A DNA stretch of 64,000 bases. Source: Prescottella equi (GTDB lineage Bacteria > Actinomycetota > Actinomycetes > Mycobacteriales > Mycobacteriaceae). The position numbers and the translations under genes were made by a program. The stretch is taken from NCBI RefSeq assembly GCF_020171745.1, contig NZ_JAIVAH010000007.1, forward strand, positions 124,001-188,000, given 5' to 3'. Shown here one piece after another: positions 38,857 through 48,722 of this stretch; within the stretch, counting starts at the first letter, position 1, and every line of letters begins with the position of its first letter. The notes below the pieces were generated by a model. It made no database searches, was not told the origin of the DNA, and saw nothing but the letters and a program-made list of their open reading frames with translations.

Positions 38857-39738
38857 ATGAGGACCAGCGCTCACGACCTCAGCCGTCGTCACGTCGTGGA
38901 GTCCGAGGACGGGGTGTCGCTCGCGGTGCGCGAGTACGGCCCGGCGGATGCCCCGGTCACCGCGGTGTTCGTGCACGGCCACTGCCTGCACACCCACTCG
39001 TGGGCGCGACTGCGCTCGCATCTCACCCGAGAGTGGGGCACCGCGGTCCGGATGGTCTTCTACGACCATCGCGGCCACGGCGAATCCGGTAGCGCCCCCG
39101 CACACACGTACACGATCGACCAGCTGGGCCGCGACCTCGACGCGGTGATCCGGAAGGCCGTCCCGACCGGACCCATCGTGCTGGTCGGCCATTCGATGGG
39201 CGGGATGACCGCGCTCGCCTACACCCGCCAGAACCCGGAGACCGTGGGCAACCGGATCGTCGGGGTGGGGCTGCTCTCGACGGCGGCCGGCGACATCACC
39301 CGTTCCGGTCTGGGGCGGTTCCTGCGGCACCCGCTCGTCTCCGCGTTCCAGTTCGGTGTCGAGCGCATGCCGCGGCTGAGCCAGCGTCTGATCAGCATGG
39401 TCCTCGACAACCCGACGTCGGTGGTGACGATGTACGGCTTCCTGCGGTCGTTCGTCGGATTCGACGAGTCGCATTCCCTCGCCGGACTGGCCGGGATTCC
39501 GTCGCTGGTCCTCGGTGGCACGTCCGACATGGTCACCCCGTTCGAGCACTCCGTCGCGATCGCGTCGAATCTCCCCGCCGCCGAACTGGTTCGGCTCGGC
39601 GGCGCGGGACACTCGGTGATCCTCGACCAGGCGCACGAGGTGGCGCACGCGTTGGTGCGACTCGTCGACCGTGCGGCGGCGCACCACGAGTCCCGTCAGC
39701 CCGCCGAGCCCTCCCTCGTACCGGCCAGCGCAGCCTGA
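38857..39738 (+). CDS. Alpha/beta hydrolase
   Basis: A 293-residue alpha/beta hydrolase. VFVHGHCLHTHSW is the oxyanion strand-loop, FYDHRGHGESG follows, the nucleophile serine is in LVGHSMGGMTALAYT, the acid residue in LVLGGTSDMVTPFEHS and the histidine in LGGAGHSVILDQAHEV. It may be a lipase or esterase; substrate unknown. The preceding 259 bases (38598-38856) hold no gene that I can support. The last 43 bases overlap the convergent gene ending at 39696. Confidence 0.9.
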   Translation: MRTSAHDLSRRHVVESEDGVSLAVREYGPADAPVTAVFVHGHCLHTHSWARLRSHLTREWGTAVRMVFYDHRGHGESGSAPAHTYTIDQLGRDLDAVIRKAVPTGPIVLVGHSMGGMTALAYTRQNPETVGNRIVGVGLLSTAAGDITRSGLGRFLRHPLVSAFQFGVERMPRLSQRLISMVLDNPTSVVTMYGFLRSFVGFDESHSLAGLAGIPSLVLGGTSDMVTPFEHSVAIASNLPAAELVRLGGAGHSVILDQAHEVAHALVRLVDRAAAHHESRQPAEPSLVPASAA

Positions 39739-40139
39739 TGGGAAGCCGCGGCGTCCGCGAGGTCCCGCGCGTCGTCCGAGTCGGCGCCCCGACCGATCTC
39801 GACGGTGAACACCTCGTCCCATCGGACGAGTCTGTCGGGATCCCATCCCAGCAGCGCGCGGTCCAGGAGCAGCCGTTCGCGGACGCCCCGCGATCCCCGG
39901 ACCCGTTCCTCCGCGACGGCGCCGACCCACGCGAGGATGTCTGCCGGGCGCAGCGTTCTCGACGTGGTCCGGTAGTGCGCCCAGGTGGCCTCGAGTACAT
40001 CGGATTCGGCACAGTCCCTGAGTAATTCCGACCAGTAGTACTCACCCGGTTCGTCCGGGGCCGGGACCTGTTCGACGCCTGCGCGGATCCGCAGCACCTC
40101 CCGGCACGTGAACACGTCGACCGTCTTGACCGGCCTCAC
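39696..40139 (-). CDS. Hypothetical protein coupled to acyl-CoA synthetase
   Basis: A 147-residue soluble protein of no recognised family (VRPVKTVDVFTCREVLRIRAG at the start, ERLLLDRALLGWDPDRLVRWDEVFTVE in the middle). Its GTG start overlaps the stop of the acyl-CoA synthetase gene by four bases (GTGA), so it is translated with it. Helical, charged and without cofactor motifs, it could be a partner or stabilising subunit of the ligase, or a component of the same catabolic route. The C-terminal 14 codons overlap the convergent hydrolase gene. Confidence 0.68.
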   Translation of the reverse strand: MRPVKTVDVFTCREVLRIRAGVEQVPAPDEPGEYYWSELLRDCAESDVLEATWAHYRTTSRTLRPADILAWVGAVAEERVRGSRGVRERLLLDRALLGWDPDRLVRWDEVFTVEIGRGADSDDARDLADAAASHQAALAGTREGSAG

Positions 40140-41791
40140 GACACGCTGGCCCGGACCGTGGCCTCGACGACCGATTCGAGCGCCAGCGCGCGAATGTCGC
40201 CCTTCGCGAGCTTCCCGCCGGACGAGCGCGGCAGTTCCTCGGCGACGACGAGGTGCTCGGGGAACAGCTCCTTCGACACCCCGCGGTTGCCGAGGTGCTC
40301 CACGAGATCCGCCAGCGTCAGCTCCCGGCCCGGCCGCAGACTCACCACCGCACACACGCGCTCACCGAAGACCGGATCGGGAACCGGGACGACACCCGCC
40401 AGATCGACCGCGGGGTGCGTCTCGACCTCCTGCTCCACCTGGGGTGCGGAGATGTTCTTGCCGCCGCGGATGATGATGTCCGACGTGCGCCCCACCGGGG
40501 TGAGGTAGTCGTCCTCGACGGTCACCAGATCGCCCATCAGCATCCAGCCGTCCTCCGTGAACAGCTCGGCGTTGGCGGCGGCGTCGTCGTAGTAACCGGC
40601 GCAGGTGAGCGGTCCACGCCCGGCAGGCCGGCCCGGGCCGCCGGTGTCGGTGACGTCGCGGCCGTCCCCGTCGAACAGGCGCACCTCCATCTCCGGGATC
40701 AGCCGCCCGGAGGTCCCGATGCGGCGCTCGAACGAGTCCTCGACACGGGTGACGCTGAACGCCCCGCTCTCGTTCGATCCGAAGAACTGCAGCACGGATG
40801 CCCCGGTCCGGTCCTCGAACTCGGCCGCGCGATCCGCCGGCACCGCCTCCCCGCCGGTGAACATCACCCGCAGCGACGACAGGTCCGCCTGCTCGGCCAG
40901 CGGCGAGTTCAGCAGCATCCGGAACTGGGTACTGACGCAGCACAGGACGGTGACCCGTTCCCGCTCGATCATCCGGATCATGCTCTCCACGTCGAACTTC
41001 GGCAGCACCACCGTGGGCACACCCAGCATGGTGGGGGCGTAGTGCGACGTCCACAGCCCGAACCCGAACGGGGCCGGGACCGCGCCGAAGAACACGTCGT
41101 CGCCCCGCAGGTGTCCGGCCTCGATCGCCAACCGACTGAACGCCATCCACCGGTTGTCGAACTGCGTCACGCACTTGGGGAGGCCCGTGGTTCCCGACGT
41201 CGAGTTGAGCAGGTTCAGGTCGTTGGGGCCGAAACTGCGGTTGTCGACGTCCGCGCGGTCCGCCCGGCCCGGCGCGATCAGAACCGCGGTGCGGCCCGAG
41301 ACGTCGAAGACGCCCTCCACACCGCGCTCGGACATCACGACGTGGAAGTCGAGCGGGAGACCGAGGCCGCGCAGTTCGCGCACCAGCACCGACGACGAGC
41401 GACCCCCGAGCGCGTCGAGCGTGATCAACGTCCTGGCGCCGGTCTTGCGGACGAGGTGCGCGATCTCCCGGTCACCGGCGCGAGCACCGATCCCGACCGC
41501 CACCACGCCGGCGCGCGCGGTCGCGACCAGGGCAGCGTGGACGAGGAACGTATCGGGTAACTGGACCGCGACCCGCTCACCGAGCGGGATACCCAGCGCC
41601 ACTAGGGTGGAGGCAAGCTCGTCGGCGACGGAATCATATGTTGCCCAGCTTGTTCGGCCGCTCGGAGTGATGTATGCGTCTGTGTCCGGCGTTCGGTTCG
41701 CGTGCTCGCGCACCATACGGTGCAGCGGTACGGTTCCCCACCATCCGGACTCCACGTAACGACCGACGCGTTCGGGGTCGATGAGGCTCAT
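40136..41791 (-). CDS. AMP-forming acyl-CoA synthetase (class I adenylate-forming enzyme)
   Basis: A 551-residue ANL-family ligase that activates a carboxylic acid as acyl-AMP and then acyl-CoA. The phosphate loop is LLNSTSGTTGLPKCVTQF, with FFGAVPAPFGFGLW and FFGSNESGAFSVTRVED as substrate/AMP motifs, the hinge GRTSDIIIRGGKNISAPQVE, and the catalytic lysine in LPRSSGGKLAKGDIRALAL. The N-terminal part (VPLHRMVREHANRTPDTDAYI) is typical of cyclohexanecarboxylate/benzoate-type ligases. The ATG at 41791 was chosen by length and homology. Divergent from a GntR regulator 117 bases away. Confidence 0.92.
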   Translation of the reverse strand: MSLIDPERVGRYVESGWWGTVPLHRMVREHANRTPDTDAYITPSGRTSWATYDSVADELASTLVALGIPLGERVAVQLPDTFLVHAALVATARAGVVAVGIGARAGDREIAHLVRKTGARTLITLDALGGRSSSVLVRELRGLGLPLDFHVVMSERGVEGVFDVSGRTAVLIAPGRADRADVDNRSFGPNDLNLLNSTSGTTGLPKCVTQFDNRWMAFSRLAIEAGHLRGDDVFFGAVPAPFGFGLWTSHYAPTMLGVPTVVLPKFDVESMIRMIERERVTVLCCVSTQFRMLLNSPLAEQADLSSLRVMFTGGEAVPADRAAEFEDRTGASVLQFFGSNESGAFSVTRVEDSFERRIGTSGRLIPEMEVRLFDGDGRDVTDTGGPGRPAGRGPLTCAGYYDDAAANAELFTEDGWMLMGDLVTVEDDYLTPVGRTSDIIIRGGKNISAPQVEQEVETHPAVDLAGVVPVPDPVFGERVCAVVSLRPGRELTLADLVEHLGNRGVSKELFPEHLVVAEELPRSSGGKLAKGDIRALALESVVEATVRASVS

Positions 41792-41806
41792 CTCGATCTC
41801 CTTGTC

Positions 41807-41826
41807 CGGGGACGACCACGTCCCCG
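41807..41826. promoter_or_regulatory. Dyad between acyl-CoA synthetase and GntR regulator
   Basis: CGGGGAC (41807-41813) and GTCCCCG (41820-41826) form a perfect dyad with a 6-base spacer, 15 bases upstream of the synthetase start. It could be an operator or a leader hairpin; GC-rich dyads arise easily in this genome. Confidence 0.35.
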
Positions 41827-41908
41827 CGGGTACTGACTTCGCTAACATTCAGAACTCAGGTGGCGGCTCCGGTCGGAGATCCGTCGTCAACCGGAAGGAA
41901 GTGACGCG

Positions 41909-42727
41909 GTGCCCCAGCAGGGACCGGACAGGAAGGCCCCCGCCGTCGACCCGGGCAGTCTCCGCTGGCGCAGGCTGGCCGAGATGGTGGCCGACCAGAT
42001 CCGTGAGCGCATCCTCCGCGGCGACCTCGCCGAGGGCGATCTCCTGCCCAAGGAGGCCGAACTGCGCGAGCAGTACCCGGTCAACGTCCAGTCGCTGCGG
42101 GAGGCGCTGCGGATCCTCGAGGCCGAGGGCCTGGTGAAGGTCCGCCGCGGCAACCGGGGCGGCGCGGTGGTCCACCGGCCCACCCCCGGCAACGTCGCCT
42201 ACAGCCTCTCGATGGTCCTCGCGATGTCGGGCACCGACATCGACGACGTGGGCCGCGCCCTCCACGAGGTCGAGCCCATGTGCGCCGCGCTGTGCGCCGA
42301 ACGCGAGGACCGCGCCACCGAGGTGGTGCCGATCCTGCGCGCCCTGCACGAGGAGTCGCTCGCCAACGTCGACGACCTCGTGGCCGCGACCACACTGTCC
42401 CGGCGGTTCCACGAGGCCGTCGTCCAACTCTGCGGCAACCAGTCCCTGATCGTGCTCGCCGGCGCCCTCGAGTCGCTGTGGTCGAGCCACGTCACCGACT
42501 GGGCCAACCAGCGCGCCGACCCCGAGACGATCCCACCGACGGAGCGGGCCCAGGCCCTCGCCGTCCACGGCCAGATCCTGCAGTGCATCGAGGACGGCGA
42601 CGCCGCGTCGGCACGGGTGATCGCCGCCCGGCACCTGAGGGACGTCCAGACGTACCCGCACGACCCGGACCGCCCGCACGTCCCTCTCGACCCGGCCGTG
42701 GCGCGGGACCGCCTCTTCTTCGGCTGA
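41909..42727 (+). CDS. GntR/FadR-family (FCD) transcriptional regulator
   Basis: A 272-residue GntR regulator of the FadR subgroup. The winged helix is RWRRLAEMVADQIRERILRGDLAEGDLLPKEAELREQYPVNVQSLREALRILEAEGLVKVRRGNRGG-like over residues 19-85. The FCD effector domain has VEPMCAALCAERED, LSRRFHEAVVQLCGN and the histidines that bind metal or acid ligands (AVHGQILQCIEDGDAASARVIAARHL). The GTG at 41909 follows GGAAGGA. It is divergent from the acyl-CoA synthetase and convergent with the amidohydrolase, so it sits at the centre of this catabolic island and probably responds to one of its acid or acyl-CoA intermediates. Confidence 0.91.
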   Translation: MPQQGPDRKAPAVDPGSLRWRRLAEMVADQIRERILRGDLAEGDLLPKEAELREQYPVNVQSLREALRILEAEGLVKVRRGNRGGAVVHRPTPGNVAYSLSMVLAMSGTDIDDVGRALHEVEPMCAALCAEREDRATEVVPILRALHEESLANVDDLVAATTLSRRFHEAVVQLCGNQSLIVLAGALESLWSSHVTDWANQRADPETIPPTERAQALAVHGQILQCIEDGDAASARVIAARHLRDVQTYPHDPDRPHVPLDPAVARDRLFFG

Positions 42728-42737
42728 CGGGATCCGG

Positions 42738-43988
42738 TCAGAAGCTGTTCGGATCGTCGATCACGCTCTGCGGCACCGGATGCCGGTACAGCTTGGACGC
42801 GTTCTCCCACGTGATCTTGCGCAACTCGTCGGCCGAGAGTCCCTTCATCGACTCGTTGACGACCTCCATCGTGCGGGGCCACAGGCTGTCGCTGTGCGGG
42901 TAGTCCTCCTCGAGGAGGATGTGGTCGATGCCGATGCGGTCGCGCAGCACCATCGTGGAGGGATCCTCCACGGCGCAGAACCAGAAGTTCCGCTTGAGCA
43001 CGTCGGCCGGCGAGATGTCGATGCCGTCCCACGTGCCGTACATCGACGAGTACGTCGTCATGTGGTCGAGCCGATCGAGAAGTGCAGGAACCCAGCCGAT
43101 TCCACCCTCGGACATCACGATCTTGATGTTCGGGAATCGGACCGGGATCTTCGAGAACAGCCAGTCGACGGTCGCGAACATCGCGTAGCCGAAGAACAGT
43201 GTGCCGGCGACGTCCGGCGGGGCGTCCTCGGACGTGCTCGGCGACGTGCTCGACGATCCGATGTGCAGATTGATGACCGTCTCGGTCTCCTCACACGCCC
43301 GCATGATCGGATCCCAGTGGCCCGAGTGCACCGACGGCAGGCCCAGCGCGTGCGGACCCTCGGAGAACGTCACGGCCTTGAAGCCGCGCTCGGCGTTGCG
43401 GTAGATCTCCTGGGCGCCGATCTCCGGGTCGAGGAAGTACGGGATCTGGCACGGGATGATGCGGTCCGGGTACGGCCCGGCCCAGTCCTCGAGGTGCCAG
43501 TCGTTGTATGCGCGGGTGGCCGCGAGCGCGAGTTCCTGGTCGCTCGTGCTCAACTGCAGGCGCTGACCGGCGAAGCCCGGGAGGAACGACGGAAAGTTCA
43601 GGGACGCATACACGCCCGAGAGGTTCATGTCCTTGACGCGGTGGTGGATGTCCCACGATCCGCGGCGCATGTCCTCGAAGCGCTGCGGATCGAAGCCCCA
43701 CTCGTCGACCGGACGCCCGACGACGGCGTTGAAGCCGACGTTCGGGATCTCCTTGCCGTCGTACACCCAGATGTCGGCGCCGTCGCGGTGGATCACCTTG
43801 GGCGCCCGGTCCGCGAACTTGGCGGGCAGGCGACCCTCGAAGGTGTTCTTGGGTTCGACGATGTGGTCGTCGACCGAGATGAACGGGAAGGGCCGGTGCG
43901 CCTTCTCCGGTTCGGGCAGGAATGTGACCTTACCCTTGACGTTCGTCGTGAAGTCGGTGTTGTGGATCAGGTCGTCGAGACTGGCCAT
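42738..43988 (-). CDS. Amidohydrolase-2 family (ACMSD-like) metal-dependent hydrolase/decarboxylase
   Basis: A 416-residue amidohydrolase-superfamily protein. FISVDDHIVEPKNTFEGRLP holds the family's first metal ligands (Asp-His variant of HxH). INLHIGSSSTSPST carries the central histidine, and EEDYPHSDSLWP the final aspartate region. Members of this subgroup act as decarboxylases or hydrolases on ring-cleavage products and phenolic acids. It lies 86 bases downstream of the class II aldolase gene, likely in one operon. The substrate cannot be read out. Confidence 0.88.
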   Translation of the reverse strand: MASLDDLIHNTDFTTNVKGKVTFLPEPEKAHRPFPFISVDDHIVEPKNTFEGRLPAKFADRAPKVIHRDGADIWVYDGKEIPNVGFNAVVGRPVDEWGFDPQRFEDMRRGSWDIHHRVKDMNLSGVYASLNFPSFLPGFAGQRLQLSTSDQELALAATRAYNDWHLEDWAGPYPDRIIPCQIPYFLDPEIGAQEIYRNAERGFKAVTFSEGPHALGLPSVHSGHWDPIMRACEETETVINLHIGSSSTSPSTSEDAPPDVAGTLFFGYAMFATVDWLFSKIPVRFPNIKIVMSEGGIGWVPALLDRLDHMTTYSSMYGTWDGIDISPADVLKRNFWFCAVEDPSTMVLRDRIGIDHILLEEDYPHSDSLWPRTMEVVNESMKGLSADELRKITWENASKLYRHPVPQSVIDDPNSF

Positions 43989-44074: not shown

Positions 44075-44869
44075 TCAGTCGAGAACGTCGGGCTCGGTGC
44101 GGATCAGCCTGCGGACCGCACCGGCCCAGTAGACGCCGGCCGCGCGCTCGACGAGCGCTTTCTGCATCGCGACGCGGATACTCTTCTCGATCGGCAAGGG
44201 GTCCTTACCGAGCAGCAGGATGTCGTACGCGAGCCGGCAGAAGCGGTCGATCGACGCCGCGCGGTACACCGCGAGCTCGACCGTGTCGGCGGTCGTGATG
44301 ATGCCGTGGCTGGCGAGGATCACGTTGTTGCGGTCACCGATCATGTCGGCGAGATCGCGGCCCAGCGCGGCGTCGTCGACCTCGCCGGTGTATTCACTGA
44401 CCAGCGAGAGGTCGTCGTCGTACAGGCTGCCGGTCTGGTGCGCGATCATCGGCAGCACGCCGACGGCGGCCAGCAGGGTCACGTAGTAGGGATGGTTGTG
44501 GATGACGACGCGGGCGTCGGGCCGACGGCGGTGCAGCTCGGTGTGGATGTGGTAGGCGGGGGTGACGTCCCACTTCCCCTCGATCACAGCACCGTTCGCG
44601 TCGACACGGCAGACGTCGGAGGCCGAGACCTCCTCCCACCACAGCCCCCACGGGTTGATGAGGAGACTGTCGTCGTCGCGATCCGCCCACGTGATGTGGC
44701 CGGCCATGTTCTCACTGAAGCCGTCATGGGCCAACGTGCGAAAGGCACACGCGAGCTTCTGCTCGTTGGTGAGTTCCACCCCGATGGGCGGCGTGACCCT
44801 GGGCTGCCAACCCTCCATCGAGTTCGATTCCTGCTCTGCAGAATTCGTCGGCTCGTCGAGCACGGTCAC
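44075..44869 (-). CDS. Class II aldolase/adducin-family protein
   Basis: A 264-residue class II aldolase/adducin fold protein. It has the zinc histidines in YHIHTELHRRRPDARVVIHNHPYYVTLLAA, the substrate loop GFSENMAGHITWADRD, LLINPWGLWWEEVSASDV, and the third histidine in NNVILASHGIITTADTVELAVYR. Such proteins cleave or decarboxylate hydroxy-oxo acids, or act as dehydratases. First gene of a likely operon with the amidohydrolase. A 23-base dyad (44922-44944) lies 53-75 bases upstream. Confidence 0.9.
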   Translation of the reverse strand: MTVLDEPTNSAEQESNSMEGWQPRVTPPIGVELTNEQKLACAFRTLAHDGFSENMAGHITWADRDDDSLLINPWGLWWEEVSASDVCRVDANGAVIEGKWDVTPAYHIHTELHRRRPDARVVIHNHPYYVTLLAAVGVLPMIAHQTGSLYDDDLSLVSEYTGEVDDAALGRDLADMIGDRNNVILASHGIITTADTVELAVYRAASIDRFCRLAYDILLLGKDPLPIEKSIRVAMQKALVERAAGVYWAGAVRRLIRTEPDVLD

Positions 44870-44992: not shown

Positions 44993-45026
44993 GAAGCGCT
45001 CACCCCCGATCGAGGGTGAGCGCTTC
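44993..45026. terminator. Strong hairpin terminator after HD-domain gene
   Basis: GAAGCGCTCACCC (44993-45005) pairs perfectly with GGGTGAGCGCTTC (45014-45026) around an 8-base loop. It lies 33 bases past the stop of the minus-strand HD-domain gene and separates it from the aldolase operon. Confidence 0.8.
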
Positions 45027-45059: not shown

Positions 45060-45647
45060 CTAATCGGCGCCGAAGCCGGATGCCGGCCGCGTGAAGACCT
45101 CACGCAGCAGCGGCACGAAGGTGTCGATCGGCAGCGTGTCGTAGTTCGGATCGAACGACACCTGGTCCCATTCCGCGCAGAAGTGCGCACACGCATCGAA
45201 GTACGGGCTGTCCCGGTAGCGCTCGCGCGTGTCCGGATCCAGCCCGAGCCGATCCCAGTAGTGATAGCCCTGGAACACGCCGTGATGCTTGACCACCCAG
45301 GTGGCCTCGGCATCCAGGTAGGGCGCCACGATGGCTGCAGCGAGTTCGGAGTGATTCGCAGGCGCGATTGCGTCGCCGATGTCGTGCATCAGTGCCGCGA
45401 CCACGAGATCGGTTCGCGCACCCTCGCGCAGCGCACGGGTCGCGGTCTGCAGCGAGTGCTCGTATCGGTCCACCTGGTAGCCGAGCGTGGGACCACGCAG
45501 CGCCTCGAGCATCTCGATCATCGTGTCCGGCAGTCGATCATTGAGAAATATCTTCGACTCCGCCACGATGAGCGCGATGTCCTCGGGGGTCGATTCGTCC
45601 ATCCGCGTGAAGCTCACTTGCCGCTCACCCGACGTATCGATCGTCAT
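45060..45647 (-). CDS. HD-domain protein, PhnZ-like putative diiron oxygenase, copy 1
   Basis: A 195-residue all-helical HD-domain protein. It carries a full six-ligand set in the order known from the mixed-valent diiron oxygenases PhnZ and MIOX: His64 (DRYEHSLQTA), His88-Asp89 (ALMHDIGD), His99 (NHSELA), His122 (VVKHHGVFQ) and Asp161 (EWDQVSFDPNYD). Ordinary HD phosphohydrolases usually stop at four or five ligands, and the EHSLQ and WDQxSFDP elements match the oxygenase branch. I therefore infer O2-dependent C-C or C-P cleavage of a hydroxylated small molecule, with a phosphohydrolase as the alternative. A paralogue lies 0.9 kb upstream, across a TetR gene. Confidence 0.8.
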   Translation of the reverse strand: MTIDTSGERQVSFTRMDESTPEDIALIVAESKIFLNDRLPDTMIEMLEALRGPTLGYQVDRYEHSLQTATRALREGARTDLVVAALMHDIGDAIAPANHSELAAAIVAPYLDAEATWVVKHHGVFQGYHYWDRLGLDPDTRERYRDSPYFDACAHFCAEWDQVSFDPNYDTLPIDTFVPLLREVFTRPASGFGAD

Positions 45648-45707
45648 GACACGAAACCCTTCCACTCGTCGCGGCCGCCGCATGCGCGTCGCCGCTAGTC
45701 CTACTAT

Positions 45708-45721
45708 CTTTATATAGAAAG
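45708..45721. promoter_or_regulatory. AT-rich near-palindrome upstream of HD-domain gene, copy 1
   Basis: CTTTATATAGAAAG, a 14-base palindrome with one mismatch pair, is 60 bases upstream of the HD-gene start and is the most AT-rich spot of the region. It is likely part of the promoter or an operator. Confidence 0.45.
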
Positions 45722-45799
45722 AGTCCGAGCTGCGGGCAAGATCGTGTCCCGCTGGGCAAGATCGCCCTTCCTCAACAGTGCTGTCGCGCGCGGCGCCGC

Positions 45800-46534
45800 T
45801 CAGGCCGACGAGAGCCGCAGCTCGTCCACGACACCCCGCAGGGCCTGCACTTCCCGCCGCAACTGCGCGAGTTCGTCCCCCGCACCGCGCTCCCGGACCG
45901 GATCGGAGTGCACGACCGCCGTCGGCGCCGGGGATCCTGACGCCCGGGCCGTGATGCCGTCGACGAACAGGTCCACCAACGTCGTCGACAGCATGATGTG
46001 ATCGGCGTCGAGCGAGTCCCGGTGCCACCGCGTCGCGGTCCACACGATCTCCCGCAGCAGCCGCTGAAGCTGCGCGGACTCGAAGTCCTTCCGAAAGCTG
46101 TTCTCGGCGATACCGTTCGCGAGGATCCGAGACCACACGTCCTGAGCCTCGACGACACGCGCGTCGATGTGGAGGTACCCGGGCAGGGTCGGTAGGACGG
46201 AGAACTCCTTGTCGTAGATCTCCGACGCATGCGGATGGCGCACCGCGACCCGCAGCGAGACGTGGATCAGATCGCACAGCTGTTCCGGCGCCGCCACGGA
46301 CCAGCGGATCTCGCTCGCATAACTGCACGTCAGGTCGTCGAGGAAGGCGATCAGGATCTCCGAGACCAGCTCGTCCTTGGACCCGAAGTAGTGGTACAGG
46401 CTGCCCGAGTGCAGCCCCACCTCGTCGGCGATGTCACGCACCGTGGTCGCAGCGACACCGCGCGACGAGAACATCCGGGCGGCACACGCGACGATCTCGG
46501 GGCGTCGACTGGGCGTCACTCGCGGCCGGCTCAT
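45800..46534 (-). CDS. TetR-family transcriptional regulator
   Basis: A 244-residue TetR regulator. HTH: EIVACAARMFSSRGVAATTVRDIADEVGLHSGSLYHYFGSKDELVSEIL (residues about 14-62). The C-terminal ligand domain resembles KstR2/FadR-type TetR proteins, ending in a short coiled-coil-like tail (DELAQLRREVQALRGVVDELRL). Its start overlaps the stop of HD copy 2 by one base (TGATG), so the two are co-translated. The dyad at 47191-47225 upstream of HD copy 2 is the likely operator, controlling this operon and the divergent transporter. Confidence 0.92.
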   Translation of the reverse strand: MSRPRVTPSRRPEIVACAARMFSSRGVAATTVRDIADEVGLHSGSLYHYFGSKDELVSEILIAFLDDLTCSYASEIRWSVAAPEQLCDLIHVSLRVAVRHPHASEIYDKEFSVLPTLPGYLHIDARVVEAQDVWSRILANGIAENSFRKDFESAQLQRLLREIVWTATRWHRDSLDADHIMLSTTLVDLFVDGITARASGSPAPTAVVHSDPVRERGAGDELAQLRREVQALRGVVDELRLSSA

Positions 46535-47127
46535 CAGGCCTGCCCGTTCAGATCCTGGTCGCCCCACGCCTTCGGTGGCCGGGAGAAGACCTCCTCGAGC
46601 ATCGGCATGAAGAACTCGAGCGGTTCCGAGTCGTAGTCGGGGTCGAACGACTCCTGGTCCCACGCGGCGCAGAAGTGCGCGCAGGTCTCGAAGTACGGCG
46701 AATCCCGGTACCGGTCACGGCTGTCCGTCGGTATGCCTAGCTTCTCGCCGTAGTGGTAGGTCTGGAAGACGCCGTGGTGCCGGACCACCCACACCGCCTC
46801 GTCGTCGAGCACCGGCCGCAGGATCGCCGCGGCCACCTCGCTGTGGTTGTCCGGGCAGAGGTCGTCGCCGATGTCGTGCAGCAGGGCCGCGACGACGAGG
46901 TCCACCCGGGCACCCTCCCGGTGGGCGCGCGTGGCCGACTGCAAAGAGTGCTCGTATCGGTCGACGCGATAGCCGAACGTGTATCCCCTCATCGACTCCA
47001 GTAGCCGCACAACGGTTCCGAGCCAGTGGTCGCGGCGGTGCCCGGAGGCCTCGTCCCGGATCAACTCCATCTCGGCGACGGTGGCGTCGTCCATCCTGGT
47101 GAATCCGACAGTTCGCGACTCGTGCAC
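46534..47127 (-). CDS. HD-domain protein, PhnZ-like putative diiron oxygenase, copy 2
   Basis: A 197-residue paralogue of the HD protein at 45060-45647, clearly homologous end to end. The same six candidate iron ligands are kept: His60 (DRYEHSLQSA), His84-Asp85 (ALLHDIGD), His95 (NHSEVA), His118 (VVRHHGVFQ) and Asp157 (AWDQESFDPDYD). Retention of every ligand in both copies argues that both are active, perhaps on different substrates or as a heteromer. It is the first gene of an operon with the TetR regulator, divergent from an MHS transporter. The ATG at 47127 is the natural start. Confidence 0.8.
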   Translation of the reverse strand: MHESRTVGFTRMDDATVAEMELIRDEASGHRRDHWLGTVVRLLESMRGYTFGYRVDRYEHSLQSATRAHREGARVDLVVAALLHDIGDDLCPDNHSEVAAAILRPVLDDEAVWVVRHHGVFQTYHYGEKLGIPTDSRDRYRDSPYFETCAHFCAAWDQESFDPDYDSEPLEFFMPMLEEVFSRPPKAWGDQDLNGQA

Positions 47128-47190
47128 GTCTCGTCTCCCCTCGTGAGGCAGTGTGGCCTGGGTAACACTACGCAGCGGGACGATACCCGA

Positions 47191-47225
47191 TCAATCAATT
47201 GATGGGGACCCAATCGATTGATTGA
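47191..47225. promoter_or_regulatory. TetR-type operator between HD copy 2 and MHS transporter
   Basis: TCAATCAAT (47191-47199) and ATTGATTGA (47217-47225) are perfect 9-base arms. The inner bases continue the symmetry partly (TTGAT / ATCGA), giving two adjacent semi-palindromes. It lies midway in the 242-base divergent gap, the expected spot for the TetR protein encoded downstream of HD copy 2. Confidence 0.72.
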
Positions 47226-47369: not shown

Positions 47370-48722
47370 ATGACCTCTTCCACCCCGACACCGCGAACGG
47401 ACACGACCGTTCGGGGCAAAGCCCGGATGATCCTCGCGGTCAACATGGGCAACGCGCTCGAATGGTTCGACTGGACCGTTTTCGCGATCTTCGCGGTGTA
47501 CTTCTCGAACCAGTTCTTCCACTCCGACAACGAGGTGTCGAACCTCCTGTCCACGATGGCAGTCTTCGCCGTCGGCTTCGTGATGCGACCGCTGGGCGGC
47601 CTGTTCTTCGGACTCATCGCCGACCGCCGCGGCCGGAAATTCGTCATGGTGCTGACGATGTCGCTCGTCGCCGCATCCAGCGTGCTCATCGCCGTAGCCC
47701 CCACCTACGGGCAGGTCGGGGCCTTCGCGTCGCTGTGGCTGCTGGTGGTGCGCTGCATCCAGGGCCTCGCGCACGGCGGCGAACAGGGCGGCTCGTACAC
47801 CTACATCGCCGAGGTGGCGCGCCCCGACAACCGAGCCCTGTGGGGCAGCACCGTGATCATGTCGACGGTCGGCGGCACGGTGCTCGCCACCCTGCTCGGT
47901 GCCATCATGCGCACTGCCGTCGACTCGTCCACCATGTCCGACTGGGGCTGGCGCATCCCGTTCCTGATCGGCGGTCTCCTCGGCTTCTTCGCCCTCTACC
48001 TACGCCGCGGGCTCGCCGAGTCCGAGACGTTCGAGGACGCGTCGGAGGCCTCTCCCGCGCCGGAATCCCCAGTCAGGGCGGCCCTGCGCGACGTCTGGGC
48101 GCAGCGCGGATCGATCCTCCGGGTCGTCATTCTCGTCGGCGGCACCTCGGTGTTCTCCTACACGTGGTCGGTGAACGCGCCGGCGTACGCGATCAGCTTC
48201 CACGGAGTGGACGACCGGCTCGCGATGTGGTCGGGCGTGGTCGCGAACCTCGTGTTCATCGCCGCTCTGCCACTCGCCGCGATGCTCGCGGATCGCGTCG
48301 GACGCCGGGTGAACAACATGGTGTGGGGCATCGGCGTCGCGGTGCTGGCCTTCCCGCTGTCCGGACTGCTCGACGACTCCGCGATCACTCTCGTGACGGC
48401 GATGTCGCTGGCACTGGTCCTGCAGTCGTTCGCGGCGAGCACCCAGGTCGCGTGGTTCGCCGAACTGTTCGCCACCAAGTCGCGTGCGACGGGCACCGGC
48501 ATCGCGGTCTCGCTCGCGGCGGCGGTGTTCGGCGGCACCGCGCCCTACCTGAACACCTGGCTCACCTCGCGGGGCTCGGCGGATCTCTTCACTTGGTACG
48601 TCGTGGCGCTGGCACTGTGTGTCGCTGTCGCGGCGTTCTTCACCCGGGAGACCAAGGGCATGTCGCTCACGGTCACCCACACCCCGAACCCGTCCACGAC
48701 GACGGAATCGACGCCCGTCTGA
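47370..48722 (+). CDS. MFS transporter, metabolite:H+ symporter (MHS) type
   Basis: A 450-residue twelve-helix transporter of the MHS branch of the major facilitator superfamily (alpha-ketoglutarate, shikimate and betaine carriers). NMGNALEWFDWTVFAIFAVYFSNQFF opens helix 1. The loop 2-3 motif is FVMRPLGGLFFGLIADRRGRK, and GGEQGGSYTYIAE matches the family's G-E-x-G-G-x motif. The ATG at 47370 follows AAGGAGA. Divergent from HD copy 2 and its TetR gene, it probably imports the substrate of this island, most likely an organic acid or zwitterion. Confidence 0.93.
   Translation: MTSSTPTPRTDTTVRGKARMILAVNMGNALEWFDWTVFAIFAVYFSNQFFHSDNEVSNLLSTMAVFAVGFVMRPLGGLFFGLIADRRGRKFVMVLTMSLVAASSVLIAVAPTYGQVGAFASLWLLVVRCIQGLAHGGEQGGSYTYIAEVARPDNRALWGSTVIMSTVGGTVLATLLGAIMRTAVDSSTMSDWGWRIPFLIGGLLGFFALYLRRGLAESETFEDASEASPAPESPVRAALRDVWAQRGSILRVVILVGGTSVFSYTWSVNAPAYAISFHGVDDRLAMWSGVVANLVFIAALPLAAMLADRVGRRVNNMVWGIGVAVLAFPLSGLLDDSAITLVTAMSLALVLQSFAASTQVAWFAELFATKSRATGTGIAVSLAAAVFGGTAPYLNTWLTSRGSADLFTWYVVALALCVAVAAFFTRETKGMSLTVTHTPNPSTTTESTPV

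Follow-up and report, generated by a model that had tools for sequence, protein, structure and literature searches.

The HD-superfamily oxygenases named in section 1.4 of a 2020 review are myo-inositol oxygenase (MIOX), PhnZ and TmpB only, and the same section gives MIOX the motif H...HD...H...H...D (PMC8177086). The further PhnY/PhnZ versions covered in the excerpted part of a 2023 review are all phosphonate enzymes, and TmpA/TmpB appear there in a 2-trimethylaminoethylphosphonate pathway whose product is glycine betaine (PMC10574752). Here we analysed a 64,000-nucleotide stretch of Prescottella equi DNA (contig NZ_JAIVAH010000007.1, positions 124,001 to 188,000; the window), which encodes two HD-domain proteins: HD1 (45060-45647, - strand, 195 aa, with an ATG start within a longer open frame) and HD2 (46534-47127, - strand, 197 aa, with a GTG start). 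An earlier note on this DNA had described them as paralogues sharing six candidate metal ligands and two flanking motifs. We found them to be 60% identical, with His64, His88-Asp89, His99, His122 and Asp161 and the EHSLQ and WDQxSFDP motifs present in both. The evidence leans towards HD1 and HD2 being HD-domain diiron oxygenases from a sister family of PhnZ/TmpB that acts on non-phosphonate substrates and cleaves C-C bonds.

Homology of HD1 and HD2 to PhnZ and TmpB

The only Pfam family listed for either protein at E values up to 1 was PF01966 (HD), at 37.5 bits for HD1 and 41.2 bits for HD2 (cut-off 22), a match that is a feature of the superfamily. NCBIfam ranked Phn-HD (TIGR03276) and TmpB highest for both proteins, and PhnZ1 came third for HD2 and fourth for HD1; every one of these scores lies far under its cut-off. 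A profile made from 44 family members, searched against the PDB, matched PhnZ (E 4.6e-11) and TmpB (3.9e-8), with Cas10 (0.17) and Dicer (0.9) next; up to an E value of 1, no solved HD hydrolase was matched except the HD domain of Cas10. An hhalign comparison of the family with 15 Phn-HD-type proteins covered 145 columns (probability 99.5, E 3.6e-23) and set each of the six candidate ligands on a Phn-HD ligand. At the level of sequence, this agrees with the placement of His64 and Asp161 at the metal site, on which the earlier note's proposal depended. The Phn-HD reference set comprised 15 of 17 genome matches (L172 and L173 were left out), and its first six members were used for the residue alignment and tree described below. 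The TIGR03276 cut-off is strict, being reached in 0 of 246 phylum genomes, and the 15 reference proteins, at 127-213 bits, are therefore Phn-HD by nearness and not by cut-off.

As a control for specificity, we compared the seven PF01966 proteins of the window's own genome. Four of them, unrelated to the family, match the general HD model better than the family members do; for TIGR03276 these four either stay within 11.5 bits or are unlisted, as against 27-34 bits for the three family members. We consider homology to PhnZ/TmpB, together with a conserved, predicted dinuclear site, to be well supported at the level of sequence. In the profile search that the earlier note had suggested, PF01966 is matched above its cut-off, PhnZ and TmpB are the best PDB matches, and the scores fall short of the TIGR03276 cut-off. 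Membership of the MIOX family was dropped as a candidate, neither protein matching PF05153 at E values up to 1; a separate MIOX search of the window's own genome carries no weight, the model having no match in any control genome.

The earlier note had taken the six ligands as its reason for an oxygenase. As proof on its own we dropped the motif: it is not diagnostic, because HD hydrolases may also be dinuclear and iron-using, YqeK being one that carries the same six-ligand motif and iron in the part of the 2020 review that treats it (PMC8177086). The direction of the oxygenase proposal survives on other grounds, namely the profile homology above and the pairing with TmpA-like genes in relatives described below. 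The first rival to be weighed is that HD1 and HD2 are phosphohydrolases, whose dinuclear site would hydrolyse a phosphoester or nucleotide and whose likeness to PhnZ would reflect common descent only. We hold this to be unlikely, though a serious contender: the PF01966 match and the YqeK precedent fit it, as does the change of the PhnZ His62 position to Asp, whereas the PDB search retrieved PhnZ and TmpB with Cas10 as the sole HD hydrolase, and the genes lie in catabolic clusters (2-oxoglutarate (2OG) hydroxylases, FAD+GcvT proteins, ring-cleavage enzymes) and not among genes of nucleotide metabolism, loci L064 and L044 being exceptions.

The genome also has a Phn-HD relative. A gene on contig C34 (L080:1483-2031) scores 131.2 bits to TIGR03276, retains the Lys108-type and Glu27-type residues of PhnZ, and adjoins ATP-binding cassette (ABC) transporter-like and other genes that resemble a phosphonate cluster by eye. 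The statement that no phosphonate genes are present therefore holds for the immediate neighbourhood of HD1 and HD2, as far as examined, and not for the genome.

Extent of the family and its replaced specificity residues

Relatives of HD1 and HD2 are numerous. A pattern scan of 84,980 species genomes found 54 loci, mainly in Actinomycetota and Proteobacteria, and a phylum sample of 396 genomes gave 40 with a match at 1e-5, 26 of them strong (E below 1e-45; counted from the list). In one genome sample, members occurred in 7 of the 14 genomes of the genus, the window's own included, against 1 of the 47 other genomes. Two tblastn runs returned 15 plasmid records each, and the loci of 11 of 15 records were analysed. 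Within the window's own genome there is a third full copy, HD3 (66% identical). On contig C5 (L088:6698-7126) lies what remains of a fourth copy, truncated to its C-terminal part. Both window copies are real, yet the 'new pair' of the earlier note has further copies in the genome and belongs to a widespread family.

The 44-member alignment used for the profile consisted of 41 of the 54 loci and the three own-genome copies, after exclusion of near-copies (L019-L023, L029, L062 and L065) and of broken, cut or partial genes (L034, L054, L059, L071 and L072). Adding the phylum loci L110-L133, but not the weak matches L134-L137 or second copies lacking a locus, gave 68 rows. The six ligands are kept in all 68, as are Gln67, Phe125, Gln126, Phe165 and Asp166; all 11 plasmid loci also keep the six ligands, along with Arg61, Asp92 and Gln126. 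Conservation on this scale is not due to chance. A 74-protein tree separates the 68 family members from six Phn-HD proteins with support of 100/100. In this tree HD1 falls with HD3 and copies from Rhodococcus, and HD2 with copies from Nocardia and Rhodococcus, so the duplication predates the genus. HD1 and HD2 therefore appear to be members of a large, widespread and apparently undescribed sister family of PhnZ/TmpB. A search of open-licence papers found nothing that we recognised as this family, which is weak evidence of novelty, and the database labels seen for members are 'HD domain-containing protein', 'inositol oxygenase family protein', 'phosphohydrolase' and 'hypothetical protein'.

Two plasmid members stood out for their settings. 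On a 12.9-kb mobilizable Sphingobium baderi plasmid (L180:5052-7353), genes for a class II aldolase, the HD protein and an alpha/beta hydrolase are consecutive, with an insertion-sequence element on one side and a recombinase gene on the other. An Acinetobacter plasmid carries a distant member (34%; L181:7001-7579) beside a putative indole-3-acetate degradation cluster, which we take to be iac.

The family departs from Phn-HD at positions outside the ligands. The YxxE motif is described as a substrate loop in PhnZ-type enzymes in section 1.4 of the 2020 review (PMC8177086). Its Glu (PhnZ Glu27, position 57 here) is present in 6 of 6 Phn-HD rows and is replaced by Tyr (55), Phe (12) or His (1) in the 68 family rows. 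Four residues after the fourth His, the PhnZ Lys108 position (126) is Lys in 6 of 6 Phn-HD rows and Gln in 68 of 68 family members, and the PhnZ His62 position (92), His in the six Phn-HD rows, carries Asp in 61 family members and Lys in the other seven. The replacements in the window proteins are Tyr57, Asp92 and Gln126. In addition, the profile alignment shows that a LSxxSxxSLxxQGG loop conserved in Phn-HD is absent from the family; the Lys108-type Lys and QGG are invariant in the 15 Phn-HD-type proteins. We take the Lys108-type residue and the QGG loop to be phosphonate contacts, His62 presumably also having a role. The replaced residues and missing loop suggest that the substrate is not a phosphonate, in line with the new substrate that the earlier note had proposed, and we read them as a changed substrate specificity around an iron site that would have been kept. 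The seven members with Lys at position 92 (L127-L133; HDxGK) form a divergent subgroup, and Lys at this position is, we assume, as in MIOX.

These residues also bear on a second rival, that the family is a divergent phosphonate-cleaving HD oxygenase, another version of PhnZ/TmpB. Its nearest characterised relatives do cleave phosphonates, and the partner hydroxylase of a member on a Pseudomonas aeruginosa plasmid is nearest to TmpA (347.5 bits, cut-off 400). We nevertheless regard it as very improbable, given that the YxxE Glu is absent and Gln stands for Lys108 in every aligned member, that the QGG loop is missing, and that the neighbouring genes are of choline/betaine, sarcosine-oxidase-like or aromatic type. 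Moreover, genome G128 has a fused Phn-HD/TmpA-like gene and, separately, a family member beside another TmpA-like gene. In the fused frame (L169:706-2928, contig C111), which spans 741 aa or more, a Phn-HD domain and a 2OG dioxygenase of TmpA/BBOX-like type are combined with a part that looks by eye like an alkaline phosphatase. This actinobacterial gene is a predicted natural fusion of the two steps of phosphonate breakdown.

Partner genes in relatives

We found a TmpA/BBOX-like 2OG hydroxylase gene directly upstream of the HD gene, on the same strand, at seven loci: L041 and L061 among the 54, L111-L114 among the 24 further phylum loci, and L176 among the 11 plasmid loci. L111-L113 come from one genus, leaving fewer independent cases. 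By approximate gene calls, the hydroxylase and HD genes overlap, in ATGA fashion, in five of the seven. The hydroxylase beside HD is the only TmpA-family match in each of three genomes of one genus (G145, G364 and G442) and one of two in G355. Less clear cases were a TmpA-like gene convergent with the family gene (G128), one on the opposite strand at a distance of about 1.7 kb (G182) and one two genes away on the opposite strand (L037); in G321 and G091, TmpA-like genes are present but away from the family gene, and in 13 of the 21 genomes searched there is no TmpA-like gene. Neighbourhood genes were called with a home-made caller, so that starts are approximate, and it missed the HD gene in L152 and in L043, L049 and L063, the last three recovered by HMM search; each neighbour cluster was named from one or a few scanned representatives.

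On the P. aeruginosa plasmid, pF045_1 (L176), the hydroxylase and HD genes are followed by those for a choline-binding ABC protein, a choline dehydrogenase and an aldehyde dehydrogenase, in this order. The ABC protein (457.7 bits to a choline ABC model) and the choline dehydrogenase (755.8 bits to a subfamily model) are both over cut-off, while the aldehyde dehydrogenase reaches 425.3 bits to the betaine-aldehyde dehydrogenase model (cut-off 668.6) and the HD protein 42.5 bits to TmpB (cut-off 300). Among 56 clustered neighbourhood stretches, a SoxB-like gene occurs in 11, a SoxD-like gene in 9 (subunit names given by eye) and an FAD+GcvT protein in 10; two of the latter that were scanned match GcvT and SoxA models, and one neighbouring regulator scores 423.6 bits to GbdR (cut-off 480). 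Glycine betaine, the product of TmpA/TmpB, would feed such sarcosine-oxidase-like and betaine-type genes. Apart from these, a glyoxalase-like gene overlaps HD in L038, L039 and L045, and a pterin dehydratase adjoins it in L058.

Several observations weigh against a C-C-cleaving oxygenase. HD1 and HD2 score 34.6 and 36.0 bits to TIGR03276, against a cut-off of 214.6, and at E values up to 1 this model weakly matches 13 of 14 well-known control genomes, although at 1e-20 it matches none of the 14. We know of no characterised mixed-valent diiron oxygenase with Asp at the PhnZ His62 position. Within the subclade of the window proteins, the HD genes have no 2OG hydroxylase gene next to them, and the window's own genome has no TmpA-family match at 1e-15, so that any hydroxylated substrate would need another source. 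Finally, some members lie among unrelated genes, as in the SAR116-type locus L064 (PEPCK, FBPase, transketolase, GAPDH) and in L044 (MoxR, FecR, SET), which speaks against deriving a single function from every neighbourhood.

The window genes, their proposed chemistry and known systems

Between HD2 and HD1 lies a gene for a TetR-family regulator (45800-46534, - strand, 244 aa). As the earlier note had observed, it is coupled to one copy, its ATG overlapping the HD2 stop codon (TGATG), and a divergent transporter gene lies on the other side of HD2 (47370-48722, + strand), encoding an MHS-type MFS protein with 335 bits to the TIGR00883 metabolite/H+ symporter model (cut-off 443.45). A strong hairpin 3' of HD1 (44993-45026, - strand; -31.1 kcal/mol, z -5.2, no U-run) possibly marks the end of the HD2-tetR-HD1 transcript. 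Beyond it are genes for a class II aldolase/adducin-type enzyme (44075-44869, - strand), an adjoining Amidohydro_2 enzyme (42738-43988, - strand, start picked by eye), a GntR/FCD regulator (41909-42727, + strand), an AMP-binding acyl-CoA ligase (40136-41848, - strand, start uncertain) and a 147-aa protein (39696-40139, - strand, start uncertain) with no Pfam match at 1e-5. The ligase has a counterpart about 80 nt after HD2 in Nocardia relatives. The 147-aa protein's cluster occurs in 9 of the 56 clustered stretches and also contains longer frames, one of them a luciferase-like monooxygenase. The aldolase is a recurrent neighbour, found in 14 of the 56 stretches, at one further locus and at plasmid loci L177, L180 and L184.

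The intergenic region between HD2 and the MHS gene contains a dyad (47191-47225) of two CAATCAATyGATTG-type half sites, with 17-nt arms that are 88% complementary. The motif CAATCAATTGATTG was found within two mismatches at 12 of 16 Nocardiaceae family loci (not L024, L032, L034 or L059) against 1 of 37 other loci, whereas 196 shuffled palindromes matched a mean of 0.07 of the 16 loci (maximum 4). The dyad in front of HD2 is thus operator-like by sequence, upholding another point of the earlier note, and we infer that the window TetR binds it. HD2-tetR-HD1 would then form a unit under TetR control, accompanied by an uptake transporter.

An exact search for CAATCAATyGATTG in the 5.49-Mb genome placed it only ahead of HD2 and within the HD3/HsaD-like divergon; allowing one mismatch added two places (C4:113948 and C29:155257), and the reversed pattern gave no match in the same genome. 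The gene order on the HD3 side is HsaD-like, HsaA-like, HsaC/BphC-like, DHA2 transporter and HD3, with a divergent TetR gene whose product is 40% identical to the window TetR over 196 aa. The predicted regulon extends beyond the window to a meta-cleavage operon, further than the earlier note had envisaged. Convergent with HD3 is a gene (L087:8942-9421) for a 159-aa protein judged cupin-like by eye. The Hsa-type names come from scans of Nocardia counterparts, which score 306.6 bits to HsaD (cut-off 400), 373.4 to HsaA (450) and 264.4/254.8 to BphC/HsaC (366.45/450). Nocardia loci L027-L030 likewise carry the motif twice, ahead of MHS-HD2-ligase and ahead of the HsaD-like operon. Because the operator before HD2 recurs before an HsaD/HsaA/HsaC-like operon that ends in HD3, a role in phenolic or aromatic catabolism is the likeliest, and the pathway in which the window HD genes take part most likely involves phenol hydroxylation and ring cleavage.

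Oxygenase chemistry is, in our judgement, the likeliest reading of HD1 and HD2, favoured though far from secure; it draws on observed homology, ligand conservation, gene pairing in relatives and a common operator motif. From the replaced residues and the partner genes we infer C-C cleavage of an alpha-hydroxylated non-phosphonate. In the proposed mechanism, His64, His88, Asp89, His99, His122 and Asp161 would hold two irons; a substrate with a hydroxyl on the carbon next to the scissile bond would bind one iron and O2 the other; and removal of the carbinol hydrogen would lead to cleavage of the adjacent C-C bond, giving a carboxylic acid. Its likeliest role would be side-chain or intermediate cleavage in phenolic or aromatic catabolism, together with the class II aldolase, the amidohydrolase and the CoA ligase.

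The aldolase brings in a third rival, in which the HD site would perform other chemistry, such as that of a redox-neutral lyase, hydratase or decarboxylase, with cyanamide hydratase for comparison. The aldolase family includes decarboxylases, and the window enzyme itself weakly matches PhtC (80.5 bits, cut-off 200); one HD lyase is also known from the part of the 2020 review that covers it (PMC8177086). Cyanamide hydratase, however, is given there as a Zn enzyme without the last Asp (Figure 7), whereas the six ligands are invariant here, and we think chemistry of this kind improbable.

A more far-reaching version of the C-C-cleaving oxygenase is a tentative conjecture, and we would not bet on it: the family would be the carbon counterpart of PhnY/PhnZ and TmpA/TmpB, splitting the C-C bond next to an alpha-hydroxyl. 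In betaine-linked members, the TmpA-like enzyme would hydroxylate a carboxylate analogue of the TmpA substrate, for example beta-alanine betaine, which the products of the adjacent choline- and aldehyde-dehydrogenase-like genes could supply from a choline-like alcohol, and the HD enzyme would yield glycine betaine and CO2; in Nocardiaceae the chemistry would have moved into a TetR-controlled aromatic ring-cleavage pathway. The substrates named are guesses. If the family does consist of C-C-cleaving oxygenases, a rare four-electron chemistry would extend beyond phosphonates and inositol, through a large family with different, largely fixed specificity residues that spans Actinomycetota, Proteobacteria and plasmids, and for which the pF045_1 operon and the shared Prescottella operator suggest concrete, testable substrates.

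Set beside the known systems, the family shares with PhnZ/Phn-HD the six-ligand site in register, an EHxLQ-type motif and, in a weak second stretch of the profile alignment, WD at the last ligand; it differs in scoring far under the TIGR03276 cut-off, in forming its own clade, in lacking the YxxE Glu, Lys108 and the LSxxSxxSLxxQGG loop, and in having Asp or Lys for His62. With TmpA/TmpB it shares an adjoining TmpA-like hydroxylase gene in seven relatives and, near some, choline/betaine-type genes, but the pF045_1 HD protein is not a TmpB and the window's genome lacks a TmpA-family match at 1e-15. MIOX has the same superfamily and ligand motif, and C-C cleavage is proposed here for the family; HD1 and HD2 nevertheless do not match the MIOX model at E values up to 1, though one relative is annotated as an 'inositol oxygenase family protein'. 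As in HsaA/HsaC/HsaD steroid meta-cleavage, the operon that carries the window's operator has HsaD-, HsaA- and HsaC/BphC-like genes; here an HD gene is added, and the scanned Nocardia members score under the Hsa cut-offs, which suggests that the substrate may be another compound.

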